Part shown: piece by piece, positions 31,187 to 45,372 of the stretch
Position numbering within the stretch: position 1 is the first letter of the stretch
Layout: each line of letters begins with the position of its first letter
IMG/VR virus record: IMGVR_UViG_3300008116_000011
Coordinates: 62,001-126,000 of that record
Source: a virus
Direction: 5' to 3' (one strand)
DNA: 64,000 nt
Translations under genes and position numbers: made by a program
The notes under the pieces: generated by a model
The model's database searches: none
What the model was told of the DNA's origin: nothing
What the model saw: only the letters and a program-made list of their open reading frames with translations

Positions 31187-31580
31187 AGTCTGCTATTGTT
31201 TGTGAATCTTTTTGTTCCCATGGATAAACTATCCATTCATTTTCAGAAGCTAACTTCCACCAAAAATGAGGTTCATATTCTGATGCTGTTTTATAATGAA
31301 GAGTAGCTGTGTAGACATTATCTTCAAATTTAAAACGTTTTAATGTTTTACCTGAGTCGCAAATGTCATCTACAATTAGGATGTTGCTTGTTATTCCTTT
31401 AATGTTAGCTTGAGACACAAAAGGGATATTTAACTTATGAGACAATATAACTGCTGGAATTAATCCTCCACGAGGTAAACCTCCAATAGCTGCTATCTCA
31501 TATTTGCTGTTGGTGATGTTAATGGCTAGTCTTTCAACAGCATCATCAATATCACTCCATGATATAAAACGTTTATCCAT
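31167..31580 (-). CDS. Phosphoribosyltransferase
   Basis: A 137-aa type I phosphoribosyltransferase. The PRPP-binding motif is ILIVDDICDSGKTL near residue 69, preceded by IAAIGGLPRGGLIPAVIL near residue 30, which resembles xanthine/hypoxanthine PRTases such as Gpt. It probably salvages a purine base to its nucleotide. It shares its last base with the folE stop, so it is coupled to folE. Whether it works with the deazaguanine bases made by the Que enzymes is an open question. Confidence 0.85.
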   Translation of the reverse strand: MDKRFISWSDIDDAVERLAINITNSKYEIAAIGGLPRGGLIPAVILSHKLNIPFVSQANIKGITSNILIVDDICDSGKTLKRFKFEDNVYTATLHYKTASEYEPHFWWKLASENEWIVYPWEQKDSQTIADYATKGK

Positions 31581-32308
31581 TATCTATAACCTTCCATTCC
31601 TAATTTAAGCATTTCAAGTACCTCAGCTTTAGCTGTTCTAGTATGATCAGCAAATACACCTGATACCTCACTTGTAACCATTGATGCTCCAAAATGTTTT
31701 ACTCCTCTACAACTAACACAGTTGTGGAATGAATGTACTACTACCATTACACCAATGTTATCTTCACAAATAGTATCTACAGCATTGTGTATTGCAACTG
31801 TAAGTTGTTCTTGAATAGCACCTCTACGAGCAAAATGCTCTACAATACGATTTAATTTACTTAAACCTACTACTTTACCATCTTTACCAGGTACATAAGC
31901 AACGTGTGCTTTACCTAAAATTGCTTGGTGGTGGTGAGAACACATTGATACAATTGGAATATCTCTTTCAAGTACAATACCTGTGTAACCATCAGAAGGG
32001 AATGCTGTGATGTCTGTAGGTAACTCATAACGACCTTTCCATAGGTCATTAACGTATGCTTTAGCTACACGGCGAGGTGTTTCCATACTATTTGGATCAT
32101 TTCTCCAATCAACACCCAATGCATCTAAAAATTCACCGTATGCTTTTTCAGCTTGATCAATTATTGCTGTTTTCTCATCTGAATTCAGTGAACGATGATT
32201 ACCAGCATCAATTAATGATTTTAATTGAAGTGACATTCCGTTTGCAAAGCCGGGTTGTGCTGTTTCTAAAGATTCAACTTGTGTAACTTTTCGTCTTTTA
32301 TTTTCCAT
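31580..32308 (-). CDS. folE: GTP cyclohydrolase I
   Basis: A 242-aa GTP cyclohydrolase I, which opens GTP to dihydroneopterin triphosphate, the first precursor of queuosine-type deazaguanines. It has ETPRRVAKAYVNDLWKG near residue 77, the zinc-binding MCSHHHQAILGKAHVAYVP near residue 122, SKLNRIVEHFARR near residue 148, and NCVSCRGVKHFGASM near residue 203 with the third zinc ligand. All catalytic landmarks are present. It has a promoter with both elements (32328-32360). Confidence 0.95.
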   Translation of the reverse strand: MENKRRKVTQVESLETAQPGFANGMSLQLKSLIDAGNHRSLNSDEKTAIIDQAEKAYGEFLDALGVDWRNDPNSMETPRRVAKAYVNDLWKGRYELPTDITAFPSDGYTGIVLERDIPIVSMCSHHHQAILGKAHVAYVPGKDGKVVGLSKLNRIVEHFARRGAIQEQLTVAIHNAVDTICEDNIGVMVVVHSFHNCVSCRGVKHFGASMVTSEVSGVFADHTRTAKAEVLEMLKLGMEGYR

Positions 32309-32327
32309 TTACATAACTATTTTATAA

Positions 32328-32360
32328 TTAAATATACGACCAAATATTTGGTTTTCAAAA
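32328..32360 (-). promoter_or_regulatory. Bacteroidota-like promoter upstream of folE
   Basis: Sense TTTTGA (32360-32355), 19 bases, then TATATTTA (32335-32328), 19 bases before the folE ATG. The spacer holds a 12-bp perfect palindrome (CCAAATATTTGG, 32340-32351) that could be an operator. Confidence 0.6.
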
Positions 32361-33248
32361 TTAAATACTAAATTTTTCAAGTAATATTCTAATTTCATTA
32401 GGTATAAGTTCTAATCCTCTCTGTTTTTCTAAAATCCATCCTTTAAAACTATCATAGTCCTCCCAATCTTTTCTATGATCTTCTGGTGAGAATGGGTATA
32501 GTTGTTTAGTGTAGTTATTTTCTTCATACAGAGAATCAAAACAAACATCTCTTAAATGTAATAACTTTATATTAGGTTCCACGGGTATTTTATTATCCTT
32601 ATGTAAATGAAGATGTCTACCGGGCCCCCAATTTATGTTTTTTTGTACTATAATAGGTTTATCGCAAAAGAATGAATTACGTACCCAATAAGAACGTTGC
32701 ATGTATATAGGAGCATTCCATCCTAGTTTTTCCTCATATATGTTTTGGACAATATCATACCCTTCAGGAATAATGTATTCAAAGTCTGTTTCTAATATTT
32801 GGTGAATATTTTCTCCCACTAACAATTCATCTGAATCTAGAAATATAAATTTATATTTTTTATGTATTAATTGAGATTTAATTCTATTAATTACATAAGG
32901 AGTTTCAGATATAAGTAATTTATATATGTTTAAATTTTCTCTGTAAGGGATAAGACATTCATACGGGCAATGAAATATAATAGGAACATTTAAATCAACC
33001 ATGTGCTCTAACAACCCATTAATTTCTTTATTAAACTCATTCTTATTTACTATTTTATTTTTTGTAATAGTTAATACAAATAAATTAGTAAATCCTTGAC
33101 TAATTAAATATTCTTTTAATTCCTCATTGTCTTTTGAGAAATTTATAAATATAAATTGGTTTTTATTAAATACCTGAGTATGGTATTCTACCCATTTTTT
33201 AAAATAATTACTAGGACGTCTGTCTAGAAGCGTTGATATTCGAAACAT
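32361..33248 (-). CDS. Glycosyltransferase-like protein (GT2_4 type)
   Basis: A 295-aa protein with KFIFLDSDELLVGENIHQIL near residue 133, the DSDE metal site of the GT2_4/DUF23-like glycosyltransferases. It has an N-terminal MFRISTLLDRRPSNYFKKWVEYH, which in that family reads as acceptor-positioning. GRHLHLHKD near residue 210 resembles the catalytic histidine loop. It abuts a membrane-protein gene and may be an outlier of the glycan module. Donor unknown. Confidence 0.72.
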   Translation of the reverse strand: MFRISTLLDRRPSNYFKKWVEYHTQVFNKNQFIFINFSKDNEELKEYLISQGFTNLFVLTITKNKIVNKNEFNKEINGLLEHMVDLNVPIIFHCPYECLIPYRENLNIYKLLISETPYVINRIKSQLIHKKYKFIFLDSDELLVGENIHQILETDFEYIIPEGYDIVQNIYEEKLGWNAPIYMQRSYWVRNSFFCDKPIIVQKNINWGPGRHLHLHKDNKIPVEPNIKLLHLRDVCFDSLYEENNYTKQLYPFSPEDHRKDWEDYDSFKGWILEKQRGLELIPNEIRILLEKFSI

Positions 33249-33554
33249 TTATTTATCATCCTTATTTTTTTCTTTAGTTCCAAAATAATAACTAAAGATC
33301 ATTAGTACTAGTGTTTTAATTAGATCAAATAATTCTTCATTTTGTTCTGGAGATATTAAGTTAATTTTCCAAGCTATAGTTTTATCAACGATAAATAAAG
33401 CAACTAAGGCTGTAAATATCATTAATATGAATCTAACTAATATTTCTTGGGTTCCTTGTGCAAATAATTTATATACAAAATAAACAGATCCCATTATAAA
33501 TCCTAAGGCCATAATTATCCCTAGGACCATTGTTAGCCCACCTTCTGAAAACAT
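33249..33554 (-). CDS. Small membrane protein, possible holin
   Basis: A 101-aa protein with three hydrophobic segments, about residues 9-30, 38-57 and 76-94. The last is LVLMIFSYYFGTKEKNKD, a YYFG-basic ending seen in several small phage holins. The charged C-terminal tail is on the cytoplasmic side by the positive-inside rule. It lies directly after the endolysin gene, so a lysis role is plausible. The start could also be Met9. Confidence 0.55.
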   Translation of the reverse strand: MFSEGGLTMVLGIIMALGFIMGSVYFVYKLFAQGTQEILVRFILMIFTALVALFIVDKTIAWKINLISPEQNEELFDLIKTLVLMIFSYYFGTKEKNKDDK

Positions 33555-33560
33555 ATGGTA

Positions 33561-34160
33561 TTATTTTAGTAAGTCGTAATATTCCTTAAAATGTTTCTTA
33601 CGATCTTCTAAACCAATAGTTCCACCGTTTACAAGTTTTGTAACTTTAGTTACTGTATCGTCTCCGGCTCCTAAATCTGCGGTTGCATTAATTTTTCTGC
33701 TGTTCCAATACCAAGCAGCTGATAGTAATGGATATTTAGTTGCAACTAAATCAGGATTTTCAAGAATATTTTCTGTTACTACAGCATCAAATGCTTTATA
33801 ATTATCTTTTCCAGTTAATTGAATATAACCACGTCCTCTAAATTTCCAACCCTCTTTTGTAGCTTCAACACCATTACCCATTCTACCACCATATACTTTA
33901 GAAGCAATTAATTCCGGTTTTCTTTCATATTGTTTTGCTAGTGCTTCAGTTGGGAAATATTTTTTAAAAGTAGTCATCAATCCTTTTGCTCCGTAATTTA
34001 GATTCTCATTTACAAGCTTAAAGCCACCTGATTCGTGACCACATTGAGATAAGAAATGAGAAAGGCGAAGTGGAGTGTTAATTTGAAATTTTTCCATTAC
34101 TCCAGGAATTTGTCCTATTACTGTGTCAGGGATGTGTCCTTTTAATTTATTTAAGTCCAT
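33561..34160 (-). CDS. GH19 chitinase-like endolysin
   Basis: A 199-aa glycoside hydrolase family 19 protein that would cut peptidoglycan at lysis. The catalytic-acid region is LSHFLSQCGHESGGFKLV near residue 33. KFRGRGYIQLTGKDNY near residue 127 is the family signature, with KYPLLSAAWYWNSRK following. No signal peptide is visible, so it needs a holin. It has a TAATATTTATA box 14 bases upstream and lies between spanin-like and holin-like genes. Confidence 0.9.
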   Translation of the reverse strand: MDLNKLKGHIPDTVIGQIPGVMEKFQINTPLRLSHFLSQCGHESGGFKLVNENLNYGAKGLMTTFKKYFPTEALAKQYERKPELIASKVYGGRMGNGVEATKEGWKFRGRGYIQLTGKDNYKAFDAVVTENILENPDLVATKYPLLSAAWYWNSRKINATADLGAGDDTVTKVTKLVNGGTIGLEDRKKHFKEYYDLLK

Positions 34161-34174
34161 AGCTTATTTTGTTA

Positions 34175-34182
34175 TAAATATT
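34175..34182 (-). promoter_or_regulatory. TATTTATA-type promoter box upstream of the endolysin
   Basis: Sense reading is TTAATATTTATAAC, 14 bases before the ATG at 34160. No upstream TTTTGG element. Confidence 0.4.
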
Positions 34183-34573
34183 AATTTCCAGTAGTATCTG
34201 TTTTTTCAGTAATTATACTATCGGATTTAATAGTTGTGTTTGTTTTTTCTTTGCCCCAGAAGTTCTTTTTAGTTTCAATATAAACAGTATCTATTTTATA
34301 TACAATCTTTTCAGTGGCTATTGTTTGTTTACTTAATACTTCTTTATATTTTTCAACTTCAGTATTCAAATAGCTAATTTCTTTAACTATTTTAACTACT
34401 TGTTCTTTAGCAGCTGAATCTGATTGATTGTATACTATAACTGCTGTGTCGAAATGTTTTTGGCTGTTTTCAAGTATATTATCTGCTTCTGTTATTTTTT
34501 CATCTACAACTTCATATCCTTCATCTTTGCAACTGAATAGAAACAAAGCAGATAACAATAACAATTTTTTCAT
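34181..34573 (-). CDS. Lipoprotein, possible outer-membrane spanin
   Basis: A 130-aa protein with a lipoprotein signal peptide (KKLLLLSALFLFSC, lipid-modified C15) followed by a long helical segment that is probably a coiled coil (residues 25-95) and a Lys/Thr-rich end. A lipoprotein next to a one-membrane-helix coiled-coil protein and an endolysin is the usual spanin arrangement. It is long for an o-spanin. The spanin call is inference from context. Confidence 0.6.
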   Translation of the reverse strand: MKKLLLLSALFLFSCKDEGYEVVDEKITEADNILENSQKHFDTAVIVYNQSDSAAKEQVVKIVKEISYLNTEVEKYKEVLSKQTIATEKIVYKIDTVYIETKKNFWGKEKTNTTIKSDSIITEKTDTTGN

Positions 34574-34575
34574 AA

Positions 34576-34842
34576 TTATTTAATTTTACCCAGTTCTTGT
34601 AATAATGTAATCTTAGAAACAGCAGCAGCTAAAGCACTGTCTGATTTACGAAGTTGATTTGTTAACATATCAACTTTAGTTTCTAATACTACAATTTTAG
34701 CATCTTGTTTAGCCACAATAGAGCTATTTGACATTTTAATATCAACATAAAGATATCCAATTGCAACTAATACAATGAATAATAATCCTTTAACTGGGTC
34801 TTTGGAAAATTCCTTAAATGTAATAGGGGTTTTTACAGGCAT
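34576..34842 (-). CDS. Single-pass coiled-coil membrane protein, possible inner-membrane spanin
   Basis: An 88-aa protein with one membrane helix (GLLFIVLVAIGYLYVDI, about residues 19-36) near the N-terminus, followed by a heptad-like coiled coil (VVLETKVDMLTNQL). This is the layout of Rz-type inner-membrane spanins, and it sits directly before a lipoprotein gene. No sequence family recognised. Confidence 0.58.
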   Translation of the reverse strand: MPVKTPITFKEFSKDPVKGLLFIVLVAIGYLYVDIKMSNSSIVAKQDAKIVVLETKVDMLTNQLRKSDSALAAAVSKITLLQELGKIK

Positions 34843-34862
34843 TTTATTTTGGTTTTTATAAG

Positions 34863-35132
34863 TTAATGAACAGCTATACTATCCACAACCTCAATAGGTA
34901 AAGTATCTACAGGAGAAATAATGCTATCTACAGGAACGGATACGCTATCAACAAAAGCATTACTAATATAATCGATTACTACATCTAATTTAACAGCATC
35001 TTCGGCTATATATCCTTTTTGAACAGCAAATACATAAGCAGCAATTGCTACTACTGATAGGATAATTACAATTTTCTTTTTACCTTTTAATTTGTCTACT
35101 AATGGGAATAATTTACTTAATATGTTTTTCAT
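34863..35132 (-). CDS. Unknown single-pass membrane protein
   Basis: An 89-aa protein with a basic N-terminus (LSKLFPLVDKLKGKKK), one membrane helix (IVIILSVVAIAAYVFAV) and an extended Val/Asp/Ser/Pro-rich tail (VPVDSIISPVDTLP), which would be periplasmic. It lies in the lysis-type module. No family recognised. Confidence 0.6.
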   Translation of the reverse strand: MKNILSKLFPLVDKLKGKKKIVIILSVVAIAAYVFAVQKGYIAEDAVKLDVVIDYISNAFVDSVSVPVDSIISPVDTLPIEVVDSIAVH

Positions 35133-35238
35133 TTTCTAATTTTTTGATTACTTTAATATTTTGATCAATTAACTTACGATCTTTAATACCGTTTTTTCTT
35201 GATTTTCTTGGTTTAAAATTATTGTGTGACCTTGCCAT
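35113..35238 (-). CDS. 41-aa highly basic peptide
   Basis: An intact 41-codon frame begins at an ATG at 35238 whose A is the last base of the upstream stop (TAATG), and overlaps the next gene by 20 bases. It is strongly basic (FKPRKSRKNGIKDRK). The coupled junctions at both ends support it. It could bind nucleic acid or membrane lipid. No family recognised. Confidence 0.62.
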   Translation of the reverse strand: MARSHNNFKPRKSRKNGIKDRKLIDQNIKVIKKLENEKHIK

Positions 35239-35495
35239 TATAATGTTTCCTCCTCAGATCCTTGATCCTTTTTATTAATATATTTGTCAATAGATGCAAT
35301 ACCAAAGCATCCTAATGTTAACCATAAGAAGGCGTTGAATATAAAATCTTGTACTAGTAGTTCTTTACCCATTGAGCCGGTAATAATATCGGCAATCGCA
35401 AAGCCTACCATCATTAAAAAAGCTAAAAAACCAATGAAAGATTTTTCATTGATGTTGTTGTTATCACTAAATAGTGACTTGAAGAATTTTTTCAT
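35238..35495 (-). CDS. Two-helix small membrane protein, possible holin
   Basis: An 85-aa protein with two hydrophobic segments (IGFLAFLMMVGFAIADIITG and FIFNAFLWLTLGCFGIASI), a basic amphipathic N-terminus (MKKFFKSLF) and a charged tail. Size, charge and position at the head of the endolysin module fit a class II holin. A strong hairpin lies 17 bases before its start. A structural membrane role is the alternative. Confidence 0.6.
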   Translation of the reverse strand: MKKFFKSLFSDNNNINEKSFIGFLAFLMMVGFAIADIITGSMGKELLVQDFIFNAFLWLTLGCFGIASIDKYINKKDQGSEEETL

Positions 35496-35512
35496 ATATA
35501 TATGATAATTAA

Positions 35513-35551
35513 GGGGTTATCGGCGATAAATAGGACACGCGCGATAACCCC
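35513..35551 (-). promoter_or_regulatory. Strong hairpin in the leader of the holin-like gene
   Basis: GGGGTTATCG (35513-35522) pairs perfectly with CGATAACCCC (35542-35551) across a 19-base loop. It lies between the 353-codon membrane-protein frame and the holin-like gene. It has no T-run in the sense direction, so it may be a processing or translation-control element rather than a terminator. Confidence 0.6.
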
Positions 35552-35573
35552 CTGCGGTATATATGTAGTAATT

Positions 35574-36593
35574 TTAATCTATAAACGCCTGCTGTATTAA
35601 TTTTTTAGCTGTTTCGTAATCTGTATTATAAATTTTGCGGCGGCGTGTTTCTGCTTTAGTAATTTCTAATTCATCTAATAGATTATAAAAATCTTTTAGT
35701 GATTTTTGTGTTACGTTTAGTTTCTGAGTAGATACTGCTGATTTAAGTTTTGTAGCATTCATTAAAGTATCATTCTTTTTCTTTTTACCCTTAACAAATA
35801 TAATACTGAGTAGTGTTAAGGATTCTTCAAGTTGCTTGTATTTTGGAGTACCAAATAAATCTTTTGTTTCAGTATATGCTCCTAATGTATAATATCCTCT
35901 AAATCCAACGCCTACTAATACTACAATTTCTAGAAAAAATGTTAAAAATACAAGTAACTTATTGTTTTCTTTATTTTTATTAACTTGTGTTTGTACAGTT
36001 AATCCCGTCTTATTTTCAACACTTGCTAGTTTTTGGTCTTTAGTTGTTTGTAGTACAGCTACAATTGAATCTCTATATTTTCTATCTGCTCTAGTACGTG
36101 CAGGTTGGTTACGATAAAAGTCAATTTCCTTATCATAATATTTTGCAATTGAATCAGCCTTAGTAGATACTGTTTGGTCTACTGTGGTAGCAATTTGTGT
36201 ACTTCTATCTATCCAACGATGGGATCCATTTAAAGATAAATAAAATGAACCTACTGTTAGCATAACTACGGCTAAAGCACCACCAATTAATCCAGGTGTT
36301 GCTTTTTTCTGTTTAAATAATCCAGTAATAAACTGTTCAAATGCGAATCGTTTAAATAATTCGTATCCGGTCATGATTAAAACAGCAAATATAAGGAATA
36401 TTGTTGCTTTAATACCAGCTAGATCAGGAATCGAGTTAACTACATCGGCAAAGAAGTAGTATGAAAAATAAATAATCGCTATGTTACCAAGGAATGAAAA
36501 CCAATACAAGGTTTTATCCAAGGTACCGAAATTCAATTCAAAACTGTTTGTTTCTAGCTGCTTTTCGAGTTTTTTATATTTAGAAAAATCCAT
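35574..36593 (-). CDS. Multi-pass membrane protein with a long periplasmic or cytoplasmic helical domain
   Basis: A 339-aa protein from the ATG at 36593 (MDFSKYKKLEKQ). An in-frame ATG exists at 36635, but the extra 14 codons would overlap the upstream gene and cover the TATATTTA box at 36606-36613, so I chose the shorter form. It has hydrophobic segments near residues 30-50, 63-82, 109-128 and 215-240, and a charged helical region between the third and fourth. Its C-terminus is basic. No family recognised. Confidence 0.66.
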   Translation of the reverse strand: MDFSKYKKLEKQLETNSFELNFGTLDKTLYWFSFLGNIAIIYFSYYFFADVVNSIPDLAGIKATIFLIFAVLIMTGYELFKRFAFEQFITGLFKQKKATPGLIGGALAVVMLTVGSFYLSLNGSHRWIDRSTQIATTVDQTVSTKADSIAKYYDKEIDFYRNQPARTRADRKYRDSIVAVLQTTKDQKLASVENKTGLTVQTQVNKNKENNKLLVFLTFFLEIVVLVGVGFRGYYTLGAYTETKDLFGTPKYKQLEESLTLLSIIFVKGKKKKNDTLMNATKLKSAVSTQKLNVTQKSLKDFYNLLDELEITKAETRRRKIYNTDYETAKKLIQQAFID

Positions 36594-36605
36594 TCGTTTT
36601 ATATA

Positions 36606-36613
36606 TAAATATA
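36606..36613 (-). promoter_or_regulatory. TATATTTA promoter box
   Basis: Sense reading is AGTATATTTATATATAAAACG, 12 bases before the ATG at 36593. It decides the start of the membrane-protein gene. A partial TATTGG lies upstream at N18. Confidence 0.48.
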
Positions 36614-36904
36614 CTACATTCCTAAGCTTTCCCAATATTTTCGCCTAACCAACTCTCCTAAATCAGCGTCATTAGGAGTATTGAATATTTCTTCATGGGA
36701 TACAGTTATTAATGTTGTTCTGCGTTTCATAATATTAGAAACAGAATATTGATCCTCATATTGATCCTCTATAGTTTCTACCCCTGTATAACATGAATAG
36801 CATAATTGTCCTGCGCCTTCAACATAGCCTATTCTGTAATCAATATGTGTTTCAAAATCATAAGCGGTTTCTTTACCGCACATAATACAAGTGTCTTTTG
36901 CCAT
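36614..36904 (-). CDS. Unknown protein with two Cys pairs
   Basis: A 96-aa protein with DTCIMCGKETAYDF near residue 4 and GQLCYSCYTGVE near residue 33. The two Cys-x2-Cys pairs suggest a zinc-binding fold. The C-terminal half is charged and helical (DADLGELVRRKYWESLGM). No family recognised. It follows a small four-helix membrane protein. Confidence 0.68.
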   Translation of the reverse strand: MAKDTCIMCGKETAYDFETHIDYRIGYVEGAGQLCYSCYTGVETIEDQYEDQYSVSNIMKRRTTLITVSHEEIFNTPNDADLGELVRRKYWESLGM

Positions 36905-36915
36905 AACTTATTTTT

Positions 36916-37257
36916 TTATTTCCAAAATATTTGTACTAAAATTATCAGGGTTCCTAAACCTAAACAAACAAGTGTTTTAAGAGTTATAGGTTCTTTAAAT
37001 AAAAAGTAAGACATTAATGCAAATGTAATTATACCAACAGCAAATCCAATCAATCGACTAGGCCATATTTCACCATTATACGCAATGACAAAATGTTTTA
37101 CAGATGCCATAAATAAAAGTGATATAGGAGCACCTCCAATAACTGCTACTAATATAGGATGGTTTTTTACCCAATCATATTTCATTTGTCCTTGCAATTG
37201 GATAAATGTAATTACTTGAGCTATAAAACCATATATAATTCCTTTAAGTATGTCCAC
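36916..37257 (-). CDS. Small four-helix membrane protein
   Basis: A 113-aa protein with four hydrophobic segments (residues about 3-20, 34-52, 62-84 and 95-112), similar in size and pattern to small multidrug-resistance or half-EamA proteins, although I see no diagnostic motif. It lies beside a sugar methyltransferase gene. A transporter or flippase role for glycan parts is a guess. Confidence 0.62.
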   Translation of the reverse strand: MDILKGIIYGFIAQVITFIQLQGQMKYDWVKNHPILVAVIGGAPISLLFMASVKHFVIAYNGEIWPSRLIGFAVGIITFALMSYFLFKEPITLKTLVCLGLGTLIILVQIFWK

Positions 37258-37260
37258 AAC

Positions 37261-37956
37261 TTATTTTTTAATATATGCTGTAGGGCACATATAATTTAGT
37301 GTTTTTATTTCTAGATTTTTTTCTTGAATAAATTTATCTACACCTTTAGATTCACTCCAACTGTGATATCCATACTCATCAAACACTATTATTCCTCCTT
37401 TTGTAACATTATCCCACATATTACTTAAAGCATCATAAGTAGGCTCAGCAATATCTAAATCCATATACAATAGAGATATTTTAAATCCAGGATATTCAGA
37501 TACAAACTTTTTACTTGTAAGTGAAATATCTCCTTCTACTAAAAGAAAATCTGAGGTACTGAATCCATCTTGTAAGAGTTTATTTTGGAATTGTTCTTTA
37601 AAGGATGAATCATGGTTAAAACTTCTTCCTTCAAATAAAGTATTCATTGTTTCTTTATCTGTTGAATTTTGAATAGAAGAAAGTAAACCATCAGTATTAA
37701 AGAAATCAAACCCAATAACTTTTTTAGCTGAATTAGGGTTGTATATATTTTTTAGTTTAAGAAATGTATACATTCCTGTTCCTTTAAATACTCCACACTC
37801 TACTATATCTCCAGGAATATCTTTAACCTCATTATATAGTAATGTTCTAGCAACTAATTTATTAAAAACCCTTCTATCATTACTTAAAATAAAATTATTA
37901 AAGTTATCAAATAGACTTTGAGGATTTTGTGTTAATTCTATCTTATTTAAATCCAT
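37261..37956 (-). CDS. TylF/MycF-type O-methyltransferase
   Basis: A 231-aa protein with IPGDIVECGVFKGTGMYTFLKL near residue 49, the TylF-family version of motif I, then VIGFDFFNTDGLL, LVEGDISLTS near residue 138, and YMDLDIAEPTYDALSNMW near residue 164 with metal-binding aspartates. TylF enzymes methylate sugar hydroxyls with SAM and Mg2+. Its ATG shares a base with the upstream stop. It probably modifies a deoxysugar in the glycan pathway. Confidence 0.85.
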   Translation of the reverse strand: MDLNKIELTQNPQSLFDNFNNFILSNDRRVFNKLVARTLLYNEVKDIPGDIVECGVFKGTGMYTFLKLKNIYNPNSAKKVIGFDFFNTDGLLSSIQNSTDKETMNTLFEGRSFNHDSSFKEQFQNKLLQDGFSTSDFLLVEGDISLTSKKFVSEYPGFKISLLYMDLDIAEPTYDALSNMWDNVTKGGIIVFDEYGYHSWSESKGVDKFIQEKNLEIKTLNYMCPTAYIKK

Positions 37957-39326
37957 TATTTTTTATTTTCAATAAAGTAACGAAGATCTTCTGGGGTTCC
38001 CAAACCCCACATTTTGTCTATATGGAATATTTTTATATGCTTTCCATTAGCTATTGCTTCGTTAAATGTAGGACATATATAAAATTCATTATTTGTCCTA
38101 ATATTTTTAGATATCATCTGTTCAGCAGAATTAACATAATCAGAACCCTTAGCCCAATAATATATACCAACAGTTGCTATATCAGATATAGGATTTTTTT
38201 CTGCTACTTCAATTACATGACCATATTCATCAACCTTAGCAAATGACCATTTAGGGTGTGTAGCGGTAAATGTAAGTATACCTCCATCAGCTCCTGTTTC
38301 TTGCATCTTGTACATAAATTCATTCGAATCCCATTCTACAAATTGATCAGAATTTGCCATTAATAAAGGAGAATCATTGTTGATATATTCTTTAGCTAAC
38401 AATGTAGTAACAGCTGATCCTTCCGTAACACCATTTACTTCTACTATTTTACATCCTGGTGTTATTAGGTTAAGTAATGTATCTAGGTTATATTTTTCGC
38501 GGTGTGATTTTTGTACAAGGTAAATATAATTAGCATCTATATTTAGATTTTCAATTACTACTTGGATCATTGGTTTTCCTTTAACCTCAATAAGTGGTTT
38601 TGGGAATGTGTATCCTGCTTGTTCAAATCTAGAACCAGCACCAGCCATTGGAATTAAAACATTTAATTTTTCATCTTTCCATTTTGGTATTGCCATATCT
38701 TTACCATTTTCTATTTCCATTAATTTTAAAATAATTCTAGTGTAAGTAACATCTTGAGGATTTTTTACTCGCATTACATTAGCACAACTTCTATGTGCTG
38801 CAAGCAAGCCATAAGGGCTATCTTCAATAATTAATGTTTCTTCAGGTAGTACTCCTAAACCACTCATTGCTTTCCAATACATCTCAGGATGTGGTTTACT
38901 ATTTTTTACGTCTTCATTCGATAAAATCAAATCAACAAATTCAGTAAGACCTAGTTTAGATAATACTGTTAATACTGTTTTACGAACACTATTAGAACAT
39001 ACAGCTATTTTATATCCATCTTCAGACAAAGCACTAAATACCGATTGTAATGTTAAATTTGGTTTTAATTGCTTTAAAGCCTCAATAGTTAAATATTGTT
39101 TTTTATGCCAAATATCATCATAAAATTTAGGATGTAATCCTTTATTTTTAGTAAGTAACTCTAACTTTTGAGTTGTTTTTAAACCATCATATATTGAAAG
39201 ATGTTCTGCTTCTGTAATTATATATTGCTCTCCAATTTCTTTAAGAGCTTGATTTAATGTATCAAAGTGTATCTGTTTGGCCTCAACCAAAACACCATCC
39301 ATATCAAATATGATTAATTTTACCAT
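37956..39326 (-). CDS. HAD phosphatase - sugar nucleotidyltransferase fusion
   Basis: A 456-aa two-domain enzyme. Residues about 1-212 are a HAD hydrolase (IIFDMDGVLVEAKQIHF with DxD, VCSNSVRKTVL near 110, IIEDSPYGLLAAHRS near 168). Residues about 222-456 are a nucleotidyltransferase (LIPMAGAGSRFEQAGYTFPKP near 226, MANSDQFVEWD near 333). The nearest reactions in other systems are D-glycero-D-manno-heptose-type or phosphocholine-type activation. It would dephosphorylate and then activate a sugar as NDP-sugar. Substrate unknown. Confidence 0.88.
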   Translation of the reverse strand: MVKLIIFDMDGVLVEAKQIHFDTLNQALKEIGEQYIITEAEHLSIYDGLKTTQKLELLTKNKGLHPKFYDDIWHKKQYLTIEALKQLKPNLTLQSVFSALSEDGYKIAVCSNSVRKTVLTVLSKLGLTEFVDLILSNEDVKNSKPHPEMYWKAMSGLGVLPEETLIIEDSPYGLLAAHRSCANVMRVKNPQDVTYTRIILKLMEIENGKDMAIPKWKDEKLNVLIPMAGAGSRFEQAGYTFPKPLIEVKGKPMIQVVIENLNIDANYIYLVQKSHREKYNLDTLLNLITPGCKIVEVNGVTEGSAVTTLLAKEYINNDSPLLMANSDQFVEWDSNEFMYKMQETGADGGILTFTATHPKWSFAKVDEYGHVIEVAEKNPISDIATVGIYYWAKGSDYVNSAEQMISKNIRTNNEFYICPTFNEAIANGKHIKIFHIDKMWGLGTPEDLRYFIENKK

Positions 39327-40147
39327 ATAAAAAGACTTTTATCAAACCCAATATACTTATTATATTCGGGATTATTAAGTAAATTATTTTCTTTAATAAG
39401 TTGTTTTACAAATGTATCCCCATGAGTTCCTGTTAGAGTTTCATGGCCATTCAAATCCATTAAAAATGCACCATGGCGTATTATTTCTTTATACCCTATA
39501 ATAAAATATTCTGCAGGGTATGCTAAATCATAGATATAGTATTTAGTGCATATTATTTTATAGTGATTCTTATTAGCTATTTCTGAGCAATCTAGTTCAT
39601 GAGGATTTATATCAGGGTTGTCTTGTAATAATTGTGTTAGTGATGATTTTTTCCATATACATGGTTGGATACTAAAAGCATGCCTGTAATTAGGATCCAT
39701 GTGGTGGAATATATTATTTTCAAATCCGTATTTGCTATAATCGATATTAAATAAAGGTCTATTATATTGATTAGCGTATGATGAAGCAAATGAGAATAAA
39801 TCTATGTTTTCATCATTCATTAATTTAACAAGATTATTTAGCCCTGTTATATCTATAGGATCTGTTAGAATATAGTCTTCGCAAAAATAGAATATATAAT
39901 CTTCTTTAATTTGAGGAAGTACATTGTTTAATGTTTTTGAGAAATGACCCCCAATAGAATCAAATTCTACATCCCCTGCTAAGTATTTTACTCTATCTAA
40001 ATATGGTAGATCGAATATTGTAAATTTGTTAGCTACAACATATATTGGTAAATTAAAATTTGGATTATGTTTAAAAAAATAATCTAAAAATAATCGTAGT
40101 ATGGGCAAATTAGTTTCATTAGTATAAACTACTATAGCTAAATTCAT
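39320..40147 (-). CDS. Probable GT-A glycosyltransferase-like protein
   Basis: A 275-aa protein with the N-terminal strand NLAIVVYTNETNLPILRLFLDYFF and a metal-site-like FYFCEDYILTDPIDI near residue 88. HGAFLMDLNGHETLTGTHGD near residue 230 may close the active site. It overlaps the HAD-nucleotidyltransferase gene by 7 bases. The family is unclear; context and the ED/DP segment suggest a glycosyltransferase. Confidence 0.6.
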   Translation of the reverse strand: MNLAIVVYTNETNLPILRLFLDYFFKHNPNFNLPIYVVANKFTIFDLPYLDRVKYLAGDVEFDSIGGHFSKTLNNVLPQIKEDYIFYFCEDYILTDPIDITGLNNLVKLMNDENIDLFSFASSYANQYNRPLFNIDYSKYGFENNIFHHMDPNYRHAFSIQPCIWKKSSLTQLLQDNPDINPHELDCSEIANKNHYKIICTKYYIYDLAYPAEYFIIGYKEIIRHGAFLMDLNGHETLTGTHGDTFVKQLIKENNLLNNPEYNKYIGFDKSLFIW

Positions 40148-40371
40148 AAAACATCTTTATCAAATATAACTATTATTTCTCCTGGGTTATGTGCAGGGAT
40201 ATTATATTCAAAGTTATATTTAGTCAAAACTTCACTTACTATTTTCTTCATAAATTCAGAATATCCAGTAATTATTCTTAAAGGTAGTTGTTTTGAATTA
40301 AGTAATACAAAATTTTCTACCACACCCCATACTTGATGATGATATAAACCATGTAAATCTAATTCTTTCAT
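40144..40371 (-). CDS. Stand-alone Smr domain protein
   Basis: A 75-aa Smr domain, the MutS2-type nicking/endonuclease domain. It has KELDLHGLYHHQVWGVVENF near residue 2 (DLHG motif) and LRIITGYSEFMKKIVSEVL near residue 31 (ITGxG-like motif, with the second glycine changed to Glu). Such domains cut branched DNA or act on RNA. It overlaps the next gene by 4 bases and lies between queE and the glycan genes. Activity is uncertain. Confidence 0.75.
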   Translation of the reverse strand: MKELDLHGLYHHQVWGVVENFVLLNSKQLPLRIITGYSEFMKKIVSEVLTKYNFEYNIPAHNPGEIIVIFDKDVL

Positions 40372-41261
40372 TATACATTTAATGTTTTATTCCAAGCTGC
40401 AATATGCAAACGAGTCAATCCTCTAAATTTATACTTTTTAGCCATTTCAAGAACAAATTGAGTACGCTCTTCAAAATTAGCTACATCATCTAGTCCTGGC
40501 ATACAAACCACGTTGGAAAGAGGTATATTAAGTGGTACGATAAAGTCGCTAAAAATCTCGTGTACATCTTCTTCATTGGATATAACAAATTTAAATTGAT
40601 AGTTTCTATGTTCCATAATACGTTTAAGAGCAGCTTCGTTAAAGCGTTGACTCTTACTCATTCCTGAGTTTGCTAACTTAGGTGAACAGTTGATTTGGTC
40701 TAAATAATCGAATAATAGTTCATCAATTACTACAGTACCATTTGTTTCAATTTCATTAAAAGCTGTTACTTTTCTAACTTTAGATGATTCACCTGTTTCT
40801 AAGTTATATTTTGTAAAAATATTTTTTACGCTAGGATCCTGGTTAATCCAATATTCAAAGAAGTTACAAATTGCTTGTTGGTGTCCTTTAATTGTAGGTT
40901 CACCACCAGTCCAAATAATATGAATAGTACCGTTTTTAATATCATCATAGATACCTTCTTCTTTCCACCTATCAATTAGATATTGGAATTCTTTATCTTC
41001 ACCTCTCCACAACCATTGGCTTGTAGAATCACAAGTCCAAGTTGCTTTACCTTCTTTAACTAAATCACCTTCGAATATTTCTCCGTCCTCTAAATTTTGA
41101 TCTTTCATTAATTGATTTGCAAATTGACGGCTCATACCGCAAGTCAAGTTACAAATACCTAAACGAACAAAGTAAGAGGGCACACCTGAGGAGATACCCT
41201 CGCCTTGGACAGAGTAGAAGTCGGAACTTATTAATAGCTTATTCGGATCAATTTTACTCAT
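40371..41261 (-). CDS. queE: QueE, 7-carboxy-7-deazaguanine synthase (radical SAM)
   Basis: A 296-aa QueE-type protein that would turn 6-carboxytetrahydropterin into 7-carboxy-7-deazaguanine. It has SSDFYSVQGEGISSGVPSYFV near residue 12, LGICNLTCGMS with C37 and C41, and TWTCDS with C77. So the third cluster cysteine is displaced by an insertion of about 33 residues relative to a normal C-x3-C-x2-C site. IHIIWTGGEPTIKGHQQ near residue 113 is the SAM-binding glycine motif. The ATG overlaps the stop of a 41-codon gene by 4 bases. Confidence 0.9.
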   Translation of the reverse strand: MSKIDPNKLLISSDFYSVQGEGISSGVPSYFVRLGICNLTCGMSRQFANQLMKDQNLEDGEIFEGDLVKEGKATWTCDSTSQWLWRGEDKEFQYLIDRWKEEGIYDDIKNGTIHIIWTGGEPTIKGHQQAICNFFEYWINQDPSVKNIFTKYNLETGESSKVRKVTAFNEIETNGTVVIDELLFDYLDQINCSPKLANSGMSKSQRFNEAALKRIMEHRNYQFKFVISNEEDVHEIFSDFIVPLNIPLSNVVCMPGLDDVANFEERTQFVLEMAKKYKFRGLTRLHIAAWNKTLNV

Positions 41262-41430: not shown

Positions 41431-41434
41431 TAAA

Positions 41435-41647: not shown

Positions 41648-41683
41648 AACAATTTTTGTTTGTTTAACAATTTATTTACAATG

Positions 41684-41716: not shown

Positions 41717-41719
41717 GAG

Positions 41720-41791
41720 TTGTTGTACCAAGATTCGAACTTAGTCTTTATGTTCCGGAAACATACGTGCTATCCCTTACACTATACAACA
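41720..41791 (-). tRNA. tRNA-Arg (anticodon CCG)
   Basis: Folds as a full cloverleaf of 72 bases: acceptor TGTTGTA/TACAACA, D stem GTGT/GCAC with A20 (an arginine identity base), anticodon arm TATGT-TTCCGGA-ACATA giving anticodon CCG with U33, and T arm CTAAG-TTCGAAT-CTTGG. Discriminator A; CCA is not encoded. A CGG-reading tRNA is odd in so AT-rich a genome. It lies directly after a terminator. Confidence 0.88.
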
Positions 41792-41798
41792 AAGGAAT

Positions 41799-41828
41799 AA
41801 AAAAAGGGACTGATTAGGTCCCTTTTTA
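41799..41828 (-). terminator. Strong intrinsic terminator inside the RNA island
   Basis: AAAAAGGGAC (41801-41810) pairs with GTCCCTTTTT (41818-41827) across a 7-base loop. The sense strand continues with TTTTTTT. It is symmetric and could stop both strands. The tRNA-Arg lies immediately after it. Confidence 0.85.
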
Positions 41829-41830
41829 TT

Positions 41831-41924
41831 GAGTACACCTTTCGGTGGTTTGAACAACTCGCAAAGGGTTCTTTGTATAAGCTCAAACCAGGTTCTTTGT
41901 ATAAGCTCAAACCACGGAGTACTT
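41831..41924 (-). ncRNA. Structured RNA with a tandem 24-bp repeat
   Basis: In the sense RNA, GUGGUUUGA (41915-41907) pairs perfectly with UCAAACCAC (41853-41845), AGUAC pairs with GUACU outside it, and CACCGAAAGGUG forms a GNRA-capped hairpin that competes with part of the stem. A perfect 24-bp tandem repeat (41867-41890 and 41891-41914) lies inside, and either copy can form the main stem. No ORF and no cloverleaf fit. A phage-specific stable RNA is likely. Confidence 0.55.
41867..41914. repeat. Perfect tandem duplication, 2 x 24 bp
   Basis: The unit GGTTCTTTGTATAAGCTCAA plus ACCA occurs twice with no gap and no mismatch (41867-41890, 41891-41914). It forms the core of the structured RNA between the aberrant tRNA and the terminator. 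Confidence 0.95.
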
Positions 41925-41938
41925 AAGTTTCCGAAGCT

Positions 41939-42013
41939 TGGAGCCACCAGTCAGGCTTGATCTGACACCTCTCCCGGTCGGAGTGGGAGGCTTCTACATT
42001 GAACTATGGCGGC
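41939..42013 (-). tRNA. Aberrant tRNA, Gly-like body with an enlarged anticodon loop
   Basis: Acceptor GCCGCCA/TGGTGGC, discriminator T, encoded CCA, the Gly-like TAGTTCAATG D-arm start, and T arm GTCAG-ATCAAGC-CTGAC mark a tRNA. The anticodon arm is unusual: CTCCC/GGGAG closes a 9-base loop (ACTCCGACC). Read as a 9-base loop it centres on TCC (Gly). If an A-C pair is allowed, a 7-base loop has U33 and anticodon CCG (Arg). The D loop is also short. Confidence 0.65.
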
Positions 42014-42035
42014 GAGTATCTTTTAAAGGATACTC
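42014..42035 (-). other. RNA-processing-type hairpin between RNA genes
   Basis: GAGTATC (42014-42020) and GATACTC (42029-42035) form a 7-bp stem with an 8-base loop, directly at the 5' side of the aberrant tRNA. It is placed as a spacer or RNase target between two RNA species. Confidence 0.6.
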
Positions 42036-42121
42036 AAACCTGCCTTGCGACAGTTTATTCGAGTTGTCTGCTCTAGATAGCTATAAAAACCGATTTGGTC
42101 GGTAAGGATTGATCTATCTAG
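42036..42121 (-). ncRNA. Structured non-tRNA RNA
   Basis: Two elements in one transcript. CTAGATAG (42073-42080) pairs with CTATCTAG (42114-42121), enclosing ACCGA/TCGGT (42089-42103). Further on, AAACTGTC-GCAA-GGCAGGTTT forms a bulged stem with a GNRA tetraloop (42036-42055). The 5' end lies about 30 bases after a TATATTTA box. It does not fold as a tRNA. It resembles the small stable RNAs of T4-type tRNA regions in position only. Confidence 0.5.
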
Positions 42122-42149
42122 TCCCTTTGTTGTTTGCTTAGTGCGTATA

Positions 42150-42157
42150 TAAATATA
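42150..42157 (-). promoter_or_regulatory. TATATTTA box upstream of the RNA island
   Basis: Sense reading is TATATATTTATATACGC, 28 bases before the first structured RNA. A TTTTGG lies only 9 bases upstream (42172-42167) rather than 19; it falls in the coding end of the membrane-protein gene and may be chance. Confidence 0.45.
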
Positions 42158-42162
42158 TAATA

Positions 42163-42522
42163 TTATCCAAAAACAGCTACTCCTACTACAGTTCCTATAG
42201 AAGCACAAATTACAAATACTATTTGGTCTACTCTAGTTCCGTAAGTTACCCTTTGCACATTTAATGCAAATGAAATCCAGAAAAAGAAAGCTACAAAAAA
42301 TAGACCAATATCTGCTTGCATTGTTTCATTAGCCCATCTAGCACTAATATTACTTCTCATAAATGCATGAATAAATGCTGACATAAATGCTACTACAAAT
42401 GTAATAGGATTATAACTATTTACTTTAAGATACTCAGTAAATAATGATTTATTACCTTGTGTTAGTATCTTTTTTGCTTTTGGCTTTTTTCGAGGTTGTA
42501 ATTGATTATTTTCCATATTCAT
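42163..42522 (-). CDS. Small membrane protein
   Basis: A 119-aa protein with a basic N-terminus (QPRKKPKAKKILTQ) and hydrophobic segments near residues 40-56, 72-90 and 101-119 (FVVAFMSAFIHAF, then IGLFFVAFFFWISFAL and FVICASIGTVVGVAVFG). It overlaps the queC stop by 17 bases. No family recognised. Confidence 0.65.
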   Translation of the reverse strand: MNMENNQLQPRKKPKAKKILTQGNKSLFTEYLKVNSYNPITFVVAFMSAFIHAFMRSNISARWANETMQADIGLFFVAFFFWISFALNVQRVTYGTRVDQIVFVICASIGTVVGVAVFG

Positions 42523-43333
42523 TTAAAACTTTTTCTACGTGTGCTTTAGCTACTTCCCAAGATACAGGACCTGTTTCATCAGCATACTCTACAGAATCCG
42601 GACGACCCAATTTGATAAATGCTTCAATACGTTCTACTGATGCTGCTGATTTGTAGTCAGAATACCATTTACCTTCAAAATCAGACCATGGATGTTTAAT
42701 AAAGATTGGTTTATAAGATGTATTAGTACGTTTATACACTTCATTAAAATCTAAACCTAATATTTCACAAGCTTTTAAACCATCTTCTAAAATATCAAAT
42801 TTATTCATTTCAAGATATGGAGTATAATGTGATATTCTTTCAGCATCCCAATTACCAATCATAAACGCTTCAAAATCAGCATCACGGAATTCTTGTCTAC
42901 AATCAGGATAAATTGCATGGTCACCAGCATGAATACCCATTGCAATAGCACATTCAGTACTATGTTTAGTTGCTATAGATAATGCTACTGCTTGTATAAG
43001 TGAAGCAAAAATTTTATTACGATTAGGAACAACAGTATCTTTCATGTTGTCTTGTTCGTAATGTCCTTCAGGTACATCCCACCCACCTTCAACTAATGCT
43101 GAGTTGAGTAGTTGAGATAGGCCATCAATTTTGATTATTTGGTGTTTTACTTTGTAAACTAGTCTAGTGTTTACATATTCAACTAATGAAGTTGCTCGTT
43201 CAAGTTCTACTCTATGTTTTTGACCATAATCAAAAGATAGAGCTGTTACTTGATAACCATTTGCTAATAGGTGGAGGAGTAAAGTTGATGAATCCATTCC
43301 ACCTGACAGTGATAATACTGCTTGTTTTTTCAT
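42506..43333 (-). CDS. queC: QueC, 7-cyano-7-deazaguanine (preQ0) synthase
   Basis: A 275-aa QueC that would turn 7-carboxy-7-deazaguanine into preQ0 with ATP and ammonia. It has the PP-loop SLSGGMDSSTLLLHLL with SGGMDS at 10-15, ALSFDYGQKHRVELERA near residue 32, VVPNRNKIFASLIQAVALS near residue 96 and IYPDCRQEFRDADF near residue 133. The C-terminal zinc cysteines of bacterial QueC are all replaced: there is no cysteine after residue about 190, and TSY stands where TCY is usual. It is otherwise complete. Confidence 0.9.
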   Translation of the reverse strand: MKKQAVLSLSGGMDSSTLLLHLLANGYQVTALSFDYGQKHRVELERATSLVEYVNTRLVYKVKHQIIKIDGLSQLLNSALVEGGWDVPEGHYEQDNMKDTVVPNRNKIFASLIQAVALSIATKHSTECAIAMGIHAGDHAIYPDCRQEFRDADFEAFMIGNWDAERISHYTPYLEMNKFDILEDGLKACEILGLDFNEVYKRTNTSYKPIFIKHPWSDFEGKWYSDYKSAASVERIEAFIKLGRPDSVEYADETGPVSWEVAKAHVEKVLNEYGK

Positions 43334-43376
43334 TTAAAATAATTGTTAAAATTTAGGCGGTATTTTAACGTTTAGC

Positions 43377-44168
43377 CTATTTAATAAACGATTTAAACTT
43401 TTGTACGTTGAATTTAATATCATCTAATTGGGTATCCAAATTCTTTTCAAAATAATGTTCGAGCTTATCTTTAGGTTTAAAGGTAATTCCACTATTAGAA
43501 TATCTTACTCCTTCAGCTCCAACTAGAATTGGATTTGATGTATCACATGAATTAACAAATTTCCAATCACTATAAGCCATAAATTCTTGAGGCAAAGAGC
43601 AACCAAGCAAATGGTGATAGCAGCTTGTATCTATAATATTTTTTTCTACTAATCGCCTAATAAATTCCATTCTACCATACATTTGGGCTTTTAGTATAGG
43701 CATTTCACCTGGATATTCTTTTTGGTATGCTGCACTGGAGTGGTTGAGTGCAATGTATTTGTATCCTAAATCAATTAATGTTTGATATGTAATTATTAAT
43801 TCACCCATATCTTTACCTTGGCATACAGCCATTAATTCAACATCTAATTCTCTCAGTTTTTCTCCATAGTTATTCATCCAATGTTTAGCATTTCTAAGAG
43901 TAGTAATGCTATCATTCCAAGCATCAGGAACAATGAATATATTTGGTTGTAGTAATTCGATTTTTGAAAGTAAATCTTCTGTTGTATGTGTTACTCCTTC
44001 AAATAATCCATTATCCATAATAATGAATCGTTTATCTTTTTTAGATTTTTGAAAGAATAAATTATACTGTTGTGATTGATCTAACAAATGAGGGAGGCAG
44101 TAATCATAGTCATTCCACTCATAAGCATATTGTAGTAGACTAAGAGGTAATTCGTGTGATACTTTCAT
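43377..44168 (-). CDS. dpdA: DpdA-like DNA 7-deazaguanine transglycosylase (TGT superfamily)
   Basis: A 263-aa TGT-fold protein. IIMDNGLFEGV near residue 50 matches the TGT segment TDSGGFQ (first catalytic Asp), LMAVCQGKDMGELI near residue 122 the beta-strand core, LGCSLPQEF near residue 192 the MGVGTPED segment, and NSCDTSNPILVG near residue 211 the nucleophile region FDCVMPTR. It is shorter than tRNA TGTs and lacks their C-terminal zinc site. Next to queC, this fits phage DpdA, which swaps guanine in DNA for preQ0. I infer the role from motifs and context. Confidence 0.78.
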   Translation of the reverse strand: MKVSHELPLSLLQYAYEWNDYDYCLPHLLDQSQQYNLFFQKSKKDKRFIIMDNGLFEGVTHTTEDLLSKIELLQPNIFIVPDAWNDSITTLRNAKHWMNNYGEKLRELDVELMAVCQGKDMGELIITYQTLIDLGYKYIALNHSSAAYQKEYPGEMPILKAQMYGRMEFIRRLVEKNIIDTSCYHHLLGCSLPQEFMAYSDWKFVNSCDTSNPILVGAEGVRYSNSGITFKPKDKLEHYFEKNLDTQLDDIKFNVQKFKSFIK

Positions 44169-44175
44169 ATAGCTA

Positions 44176-44454
44176 TTAAAATATTTTATTATTATTTTCC
44201 TCCTCAGCCATTCTAAAACTATCTTCCATTAATTGAGTATTAATATCGGTAAAATCAGTATCAATGAATATTTTTTCAGCTTCGAAATATTCATTCAAAA
44301 ATTCTTCAGGATATAAAAGTACTTCCCCTGTATATTTTGGGTTTGAAACAAAACGTTTTTCTGGGGTAATGTTTTTTAACTTAGCATAGCCTGCTACTCG
44401 TTTACCCAATGCAGGGCCAGCAGCATATCCTAAATAATCATAAAGCGAAACCAT
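44176..44454 (-). CDS. Unknown phage protein
   Basis: A 92-aa protein (LYDYLGYAAGPALGKRVAGY at the N-terminus, acidic C-terminus EDSFRMAEEENNNKIF). I do not recognise it. It lies between thioredoxin and the DpdA-like gene and may belong to the modification operon. Confidence 0.66.
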   Translation of the reverse strand: MVSLYDYLGYAAGPALGKRVAGYAKLKNITPEKRFVSNPKYTGEVLLYPEEFLNEYFEAEKIFIDTDFTDINTQLMEDSFRMAEEENNNKIF

Positions 44455-44466
44455 AATTATATGTTT

Positions 44467-44709
44467 TTAACTTAGTAATTGAATATAATAACTTTTTGGT
44501 TGGGGACCTACCTTTCTTTCAGTTTCCTTTCCATTAACTAATAAAATAGTTGTTGGAATAGAAGTAATTCCATATTCACGAGCAATTTCAGGTTGATTGT
44601 CTATATTAATTTTTTTAATAGGATATTGTGTTGATAATTCATCTAAAATAGGACCTAGTGCTCTACAAGGACCACACCAGGGTGCAGAAAAGTAAAGTAA
44701 TTGTTTCAT
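44467..44709 (-). CDS. Thioredoxin-like protein
   Basis: An 80-aa thioredoxin with the redox motif FSAPWCGPCRALGPIL near residue 7 and the cis-Pro loop YGITSIPTTILLVNGKE near residue 47. It is shorter than host thioredoxins (about 105 aa), like T4 NrdC. It would reduce the class II ribonucleotide reductase encoded 1.5 kb upstream. It overlaps the upstream gene by 4 bases. Confidence 0.9.
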   Translation of the reverse strand: MKQLLYFSAPWCGPCRALGPILDELSTQYPIKKINIDNQPEIAREYGITSIPTTILLVNGKETERKVGPQPKSYYIQLLS

Positions 44710-44918
44710 TGGTATCGTTTTAGTTTTCTTTTTAATTTATCAATTTGTATTTGGCAGTACCATTTTCCCATATTACTAGAGGCTTCATCATACTTTTTCT
44801 GCCATTTATCAATTTTTTTATAAATAGAAGCGTTTGCATTATTAAGAATGTCTATATCATAATAGCTATTATTTTCCAACATAGCTTCTTCCCATTCTTC
44901 TTTTTTAGTTTTACTCAT
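44706..44918 (-). CDS. Unknown small helical protein
   Basis: A 70-aa charged helical protein from the ATG at 44918 (MSKTKKEEWEEAML). A longer form beginning at 44957 overlaps queD by 47 bases; I prefer the 44918 start, which overlaps by 8. The C-terminus is basic (LKRKLKRYQ). It overlaps the thioredoxin start by 4 bases. No family recognised. Confidence 0.6.
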   Translation of the reverse strand: MSKTKKEEWEEAMLENNSYYDIDILNNANASIYKKIDKWQKKYDEASSNMGKWYCQIQIDKLKRKLKRYQ

Positions 44919-45372
44919 ATATAGCAGTATTTTTGTTATGCTCCATAAATTCAACACGTGCTACCTTAACTCGTCCATTTGTTTCCTCCTGGATAAATGT
45001 ATTTAGTTTTTCAAATATATATTTTGCAAATTGTTCAGCACCAACAGCAGGAATAACTCTAATTTGAGCAGCGCCTACTTTATCCATTTCAAGGAATGCA
45101 GGTAAAAACGGATCATCTTCGGCTATAATAGTAGTGTGATCAAACATGTAATCCATCCATGCTTTAGGATTCTTACCATCAATAGTACCTTTAGCACGTT
45201 TCATACCTCCAAAATCCCAAACCCAATTACGTTCATCAAGTTCACCTTCGAACCATACTCTAAACGATACTCCATAACCATGGATATATTTGCAGTGTGT
45301 ACCTTCGGCTCTCCATTGTCTAAAAACACAACTAAAACCGTCAAATAACTTTGTTGATTGAAACTTTGGCAT
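44911..45372 (-). CDS. queD: QueD-like 6-carboxytetrahydropterin synthase
   Basis: A 153-aa QueD/PTPS-type protein that would convert dihydroneopterin triphosphate to 6-carboxytetrahydropterin. It has GTHCKYIHGYGVSFRVWFEGEL near residue 24, NWVWDFGGMKRAK near residue 48, FDHTTIIAEDDP near residue 73 with the catalytic Asp-His, and VEFMEHNKNTAIYE at the C-terminus. HGY replaces the usual HGH and the first zinc histidine (AAH) is absent, so the metal site differs from cellular QueD. The family call is clear, the chemistry less so. Confidence 0.85.
   Translation of the reverse strand: MPKFQSTKLFDGFSCVFRQWRAEGTHCKYIHGYGVSFRVWFEGELDERNWVWDFGGMKRAKGTIDGKNPKAWMDYMFDHTTIIAEDDPFLPAFLEMDKVGAAQIRVIPAVGAEQFAKYIFEKLNTFIQEETNGRVKVARVEFMEHNKNTAIYE

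Follow-up and report, generated by a model that had tools for sequence, protein, structure and literature searches.

We examined a 64,000-nucleotide window of phage DNA, bases 62001-126000 of the 174,437-bp virus record IMGVR_UViG_3300008116_000011, whose minus strand carries 7-deazaguanine pathway genes around a candidate base-exchange enzyme of the tRNA-guanine transglycosylase (TGT)/DpdA fold. The phage is T4-like and shares 60% identity with Flavobacterium phage immuto in its large terminase; the host of this large virus is probably a Flavobacterium-like bacterium. The pathway genes and the candidate are given below (CDG, 7-carboxy-7-deazaguanine; ADG, 7-amido-7-deazaguanine).

31580..32308 (-), FolE, GTP cyclohydrolase I (Pfam GTP_cyclohydroI E=5e-44; PDB match E=6e-32)
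40371..41261 (-), QueE, radical SAM CDG synthase (phrog_2076 E=3.3e-37)
42506..43333 (-), QueC-like protein (CDG to ADG/preQ0), 275 aa (Pfam QueC E=2.6e-39)
43377..44168 (-), candidate TGT/DpdA-fold base-exchange enzyme, 263 aa, phrog_19058 (predicted fold, conserved motifs)
44911..45372 (-), QueD-like protein (6-carboxytetrahydropterin synthase), 153 aa (Pfam PTPS E=9e-16; phrog_2389 E=1e-40)

The first-pass annotation had placed FolE, QueD, QueE and QueC at this locus, and all four were confirmed by Pfam or PHROG matches (E=9e-16 to 5e-44). Judged by sequence, their identities are secure and make up a full gene set from GTP to 7-deazaguanine. The QueE has a long insertion between its cluster cysteines, and its nearest relative is the QueE of halovirus HVTV-1 (33%). 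Hundreds of IMG/VR loci were found to carry a relative of the candidate enzyme, and the relatives examined adjoin the same Que genes; among pattern-selected stretches, 473 were confirmed to hold the gene, and 80 of these were kept. All four Que genes lay beside the transglycosylase homologue in 29 of the 32 related window-clade loci of at least 18 kb, so the gene set is not a chance assembly. The order that recurs is NrdJ, QueD, transglycosylase, QueC, QueE, FolE, phosphoribosyltransferase and a DCD-like gene. Among 20 large records carrying the enzyme, QueC was found in 20/20 and a Pfam TGT in 0/20.

The lack of QueF, ArcS and a Gat-type amidotransferase, noted earlier for the window, was found to extend to the whole record: QueF (PF14489), the ArcS C-domain (PF17884), GATase_6 (PF13522) and TGT (PF01702) gave no match there, while the controls were positive. 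The same search with the Pfam DpdA profile (PF23859) was also empty, but it had no working positive control and shows nothing by itself. No second copy of QueC or QueD was found elsewhere in the record.

The candidate belongs to phrog_19058, a family of 'unknown function'. At a cut-off of 1e-3 neither Pfam nor NCBIfam gave a match, and no curated family fits it. An AlphaFold2 model, built on an alignment of 54 members (the window protein and IMG/VR sequences), had a pLDDT of 94.3 and a pTM of 0.91. When the model was compared with the PDB using Foldseek, the 50 listed matches (E 5e-9 to 3e-7, the best a TGT) were all TGTs except DpdA 7ui4, which ranked 13 (E 7e-8). Matches in BFVD included DpdA2 of Vibrio phage nt-1 and phage 'queuine tRNA-ribosyltransferases'.

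We observed that D52, N53, D82, Q117 and D209 were identical in 132/132 aligned members, and that D52, N53, D82 and D209 were kept even in the most distant ones (~20% identical). The invariant motifs of the window protein are D52-N53, D82, Q117-G118, H186-x-L-G189 and D209-T-S-N-P. Mapped by motif order rather than by superposed coordinates, D52-N53 corresponds to the D-S of TDSGGF in TGT, D82 to FDECTP, Q117-G118 to GIIQG, I139-A140 to AVGGL, HLLG 186-189 to YLMGVG and D209 to GIDMFD. The earlier claim of a TGT-fold protein with two aspartate segments was thus upheld, by AlphaFold2 and Foldseek for the fold and by the invariance of D52 and D209. The model is a TIM barrel that most resembles TGT/DpdA structures, and by motif order the protein has two predicted catalytic aspartates and a predicted base-recognition Asp/Gln pair, placed as in TGT. 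The dN/dS of the transglycosylase was ~0.1-0.2, which indicates purifying selection. The isoelectric point was also tried as a test of DNA binding, but it does not discriminate, since known DpdA and TGT proteins are equally acidic. Weak matches to Pfam DUF6610 (E ~0.001) were seen at residues ~140-230 of the family, across the HLLG...SxDT motifs; on these matches, DUF6610 may be another TGT-like family.

The first-pass annotation had proposed a profile comparison of this protein with the DpdA and TGT families, and this failed by sequence and succeeded by structure. Searches against the PDB with phmmer and hmmsearch, hhalign comparisons with small DpdA and DpdA2 alignments, and hmmsearch with individual TGT and DpdA proteins were marginal at best, although several of the marginal local matches cover the expected motifs. 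In a Pfam scan of 54 members, PF01702 appeared in 2/54, with a best weak E of 0.035.

When set against bacterial TGT (PF01702), the window protein is alike in fold, and D89-S90, D143, Q188 and D264 of the E. coli enzyme have positional counterparts. However, it is ~110 aa shorter, the PF01702 profile misses it, and the C-terminal zinc site (CxCxxC...H) is absent, with no cysteine past D209. With the phage DpdA proteins of 9g, CAjan and Iggy (phrog_887/7068) it shares the TGT fold, the FolE, QueC, QueD and QueE partners, and the DSGAF-like, second Asp, GG and SCDSS motifs, identically ordered. No full-length sequence similarity to phrog_887/7068 or PF23859 was detectable, though; the PHROG families differ, and the conserved DpdA histidine (H196; His132 in CAjan) is replaced by Gln117. 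Only the Youna2 and BSP7 members have a histidine at this position. DpdA2 of nt-1 (phrog_10773) likewise has the TGT fold and lacks the DpdA histidine, but it is 464 aa long with a C-terminal extension and has no sequence match to the window protein. By these comparisons, the window enzyme is outside the DpdA, DpdA2 and TGT sequence families.

A member of the same family is present in Campylobacter phage CP220, a Firehammervirus by its record. In CP220 and CPt10, the deoxynucleoside of ADG (dADG) replaces 100% of dG (PMC8306585). Hutinet 2019 set phages with preQ0 genes and no DpdA apart as a separate group and raised the possibility that insertion in the Campylobacter phages does not depend on DpdA (PMC6884629). 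We observed that gp056 of CP220, annotated as a hypothetical protein, is 37% identical to the window protein (E 5.5e-36), and that a Foldseek comparison of its model ranked Thermotoga maritima TGT first and DpdA second, a weaker result than for the window model but in line with it. A DpdA-like enzyme is therefore probably present, and unrecognized, in the Firehammerviruses. In all, 14 Campylobacter phage records carry a relative as a 'hypothetical protein'. In contrast, no relative was found at E up to 10 in the dI-modified Fletchervirus NCTC12673. Beyond what was noted at first, the enzyme thus probably represents a divergent family that fills the stated gap for Campylobacter phages.

Like the window phage, CP220 has QueC and QueD and no QueF over the cut-off. 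The two differ in their QueC proteins and, as far as the base is concerned, in that CP220 DNA is known to have dADG at 100% of G. The zinc motif of QueC, C(x)8CxxCxxC, is kept in CP220. Alignments showed that the window QueC retains the P-loop SGGMDSS but has lost these C-terminal zinc cysteines, and that its C-terminus is remodelled. In the window QueD, HGY stands in place of HGH and the first zinc histidine is also gone, which leaves one of the three zinc histidines, while Cys27, the D78-H79 pair and E144 are retained. Both variants are conserved across the window clade and so do not reflect decay. QueC proteins without the zinc cysteines were also seen in immuto, Pseudomonas phage Iggy and Rhizobium phage RHEph06 (window 42506-43333; L201:4671-5732; L202:4165-5001), and the HGY-type QueD forms a conserved subfamily in phages of Flavobacterium, Cellulophaga, Pseudomonas and Rhizobium (window 44911-45372; L201:5992-6450). 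In Iggy and the Rhizobium phage both variants occur alongside a classic DpdA. According to a 2026 survey, preQ0 synthesis is predicted to be lost where the QueC motifs are altered (PMC13329287); the phage QueC proteins without the motif offer a test of that claim.

Taken at a probability of about 0.78, our reading is that the phage makes a 7-deazaguanine base and that a divergent enzyme of the TGT superfamily swaps it for guanine in phage DNA. FolE, QueD, QueE and QueC would build the base from GTP, and the enzyme encoded at 43377-44168 would exchange guanine already in the phage DNA for it through a covalent intermediate at an aspartate, as TGT and DpdA do. From their positions, we would expect D209 to act as nucleophile and D52 as general acid/base, with D82 and Q117 recognizing the base. 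The modified DNA would be shielded from host nucleases. The system would thus work in the manner of the DpdA systems, and the family is best read as a third and divergent subfamily of DpdA-like enzymes, with preQ0 (or ADG) as the base put into DNA.

Several observations weigh against this. The TM-scores of 0.59-0.68 are at the level of a remote homologue, TGT, DpdA and DpdA2 profiles give the window protein no significant sequence match, and the CP220 model matches generic TIM barrels (E ~1e-4) only slightly less well than it does TGT and DpdA. The window QueC lacks the motif whose alteration is said to predict the loss of preQ0 synthesis (PMC13329287), and two zinc histidines are missing from QueD. 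The want of profile support and the TIM-barrel matches of the CP220 model would also suit a different TIM-barrel enzyme, with the Que genes merely feeding host queuosine. We consider this very improbable, since the 50 listed PDB matches of the window model were all TGT or DpdA, the TGT motif order is kept, and the Que genes are tightly linked to the enzyme across many phage lineages.

It is also conceivable, but improbable, that the enzyme acts on mononucleotides, swapping the guanine of (d)GTP or (d)GMP before polymerization with the help of nearby nucleotide enzymes. Such a route would account for complete replacement in CP220, and it fits a small protein without the zinc subdomain. Nucleotide enzymes do lie close by, namely a phosphoribosyltransferase and DCD in the window, an HD-domain protein and an AAA_28 kinase-like protein in CP220, and a MazG-like protein in Cellulophaga phage phiST. 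However, Crippen and coworkers in 2019 reportedly saw no dADG phosphate in infected cells. The known DpdA also acts on DNA (PMC6884629).

As to the base that the proposed DNA exchange would deliver, the absence of QueF, ArcS and Gat matches leads us to expect preQ0 or its amide ADG in the window phage, with preQ0 somewhat ahead. The first-pass annotation had named preQ0 itself; the lack of a reductase or amidotransferase agrees with this, but preQ0 as the final base is not established, given that CP220 and CPt10, which carry the enzyme's nearest relatives among phages with measured DNA, have dADG and that the window QueC and QueD lack canonical metal ligands. Counting the other way, Iggy is reported to have dPreQ0 in its DNA (PMC11008142) with the same QueC and QueD variants, although its host could supply precursors.

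That the same machinery inserts ADG is a tentative alternative. QueC would halt at the amide, or the enzyme would select ADG, and possibly most or all G would be replaced as in CP220. The homologous enzyme in CP220 and CPt10 (37% identity, E 5.5e-36), both with 100% dADG (PMC8306585), is in line with this, as are the remodelled C-terminus of the window QueC and the lack of QueF in both the window clade and the Firehammerviruses. The reported dPreQ0 of Iggy argues against it, as does the QueC of CP220, which retains the zinc cysteines; for the latter reason we rejected zinc loss as a predictor of ADG.

QueF was not found above the cut-off in any window-clade or Firehammervirus record. The weak QueF matches in the window clade were frames of 210-229 aa, and they fall on FolE, which has a related fold, where coordinates could be compared. 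In the immuto clade, however, 8/8 large records had a QueF-like protein that matched QueF twice, so dPreQ1 or dG+ would be expected there. From this difference, one enzyme family seems to serve different bases.

The immuto protein gp206, which is already called DpdA in GenBank, is a member of the family with 33% identity to the window protein; earlier naming elsewhere, notably by Cui 2023, is possible. In immuto, FolE, QueD and QueE are linked, and QueC and QueD are of the same variant types as in the window. Identity between the two phages is 60% for the terminase, 62-63% for QueC and FolE and 73% for QueD, but 33% for the transglycosylase and 24% for QueE. The immuto transglycosylase is nearer to that of CP220 (44%) than to that of the window. 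We infer that the inserter may have been replaced or have diverged fast, possibly along with a change of end product.

On the minus strand, the gene order is QueD, thioredoxin, a 92-aa unknown, the candidate transglycosylase, QueC, two tRNA-like genes and QueE, followed after ~8 kb of other genes by FolE, the phosphoribosyltransferase and the dCTP-deaminase-like gene. The neighbours are as follows.

46196..48067 (-), B12-type ribonucleotide reductase, conserved upstream neighbour (Pfam)
44467..44709 (-), thioredoxin (Pfam E=2e-18)
44176..44454 (-), 92-aa protein of unknown function, kept beside the transglycosylase in 59/85 loci
41942..42013 (-), second tRNA-like gene, anticodon CCG by eye (Rfam 35 bits)
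41720..41791 (-), tRNA-Arg(CCG)
31167..31580 (-), phosphoribosyltransferase-domain protein adjoining FolE (Pfam Pribosyltran E=2.7e-13)
30473..31012 (-), dCTP deaminase/dUTPase-like nucleotide enzyme, conserved neighbour (Pfam DCD E=6e-12)

The interleaving of thioredoxin and RNAs described at first was therefore seen again. The TGT fold and the nearby phage tRNAs raise the question of a pathway for tRNA, in which the phage would raise queuosine precursors and the enzyme would modify tRNA. This is the least likely of the explanations that we weighed: the phage tRNAs read CCG, and with no GUN anticodon the tRNA-Arg(CCG) is not a TGT substrate. The enzyme also lacks the C-terminal zinc/tRNA subdomain, and the Firehammervirus carriers modify DNA. 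The two tRNA-like genes (41720-42013), both apparently CCG (Arg), differ in G+C (38% vs 58%).

By BLAST, the phosphoribosyltransferase gene was found in 32/85 window-clade and 61/81 immuto-clade loci. In both clades many loci have it beside FolE, and it could salvage a deazabase to the nucleotide. QueE and FolE are near each other in most related loci, unlike in the window, where the region between and beyond them (27856-30434, 32361-40147) holds glycosyltransferase-like genes and a HAD/nucleotidyltransferase fusion (37956-39326). The same phage record also encodes a 1494-aa Thr/Pro/Ser-repeat protein (L188:13255-17739), opposite which there are long open frames.

Relatives annotated as 'hypothetical protein' were also found in named phages, namely Cellulophaga phiST (CGPG_00065), Chryseobacterium MA9V-3, Weizmannia Youna2, Bacillus BSP7 and Aeromonas Ahp1. 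They occur with FolE, QueD, QueE (and in some QueC) in the first four and with FolE in Ahp1, and in Youna2 and BSP7 the relative is directly upstream of the DNA polymerase gene. HVTV-1 was rejected as a family member, as a 20-kb region gave no significant match. A cellular or plasmid origin of the enzyme was rejected, as no confirmed relative was found in bacterial genome contigs or plasmids at the sensitivity used. One environmental copy (L087:9980-10774) is broken by an in-frame stop, while the surrounding Que genes are still detected. The 40-kb stretch of phiST that was viewed holds the transglycosylase relative together with QueD, QueE, FolE and a MazG-like protein but has no annotated QueC, which suggests CDG as the product.

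A more far-reaching proposal, which we regard as doubtful, is that the family is the missing inserter of the dG-free Campylobacter phages and replaces all of the dG, possibly by acting on the nucleotide pool instead of DNA, with different lineages delivering ADG, preQ0, a base derived through QueF or, for phiST, CDG. For the Campylobacter phages and several more, the family supplies a concrete inserter candidate, open to deletion and assay. From it, 7-deazaguanine DNA is predicted in phages without an annotated inserter (MA9V-3, Youna2, BSP7 and Ahp1). If the CP220-type enzyme does reach 100% exchange, it would be a useful tool.

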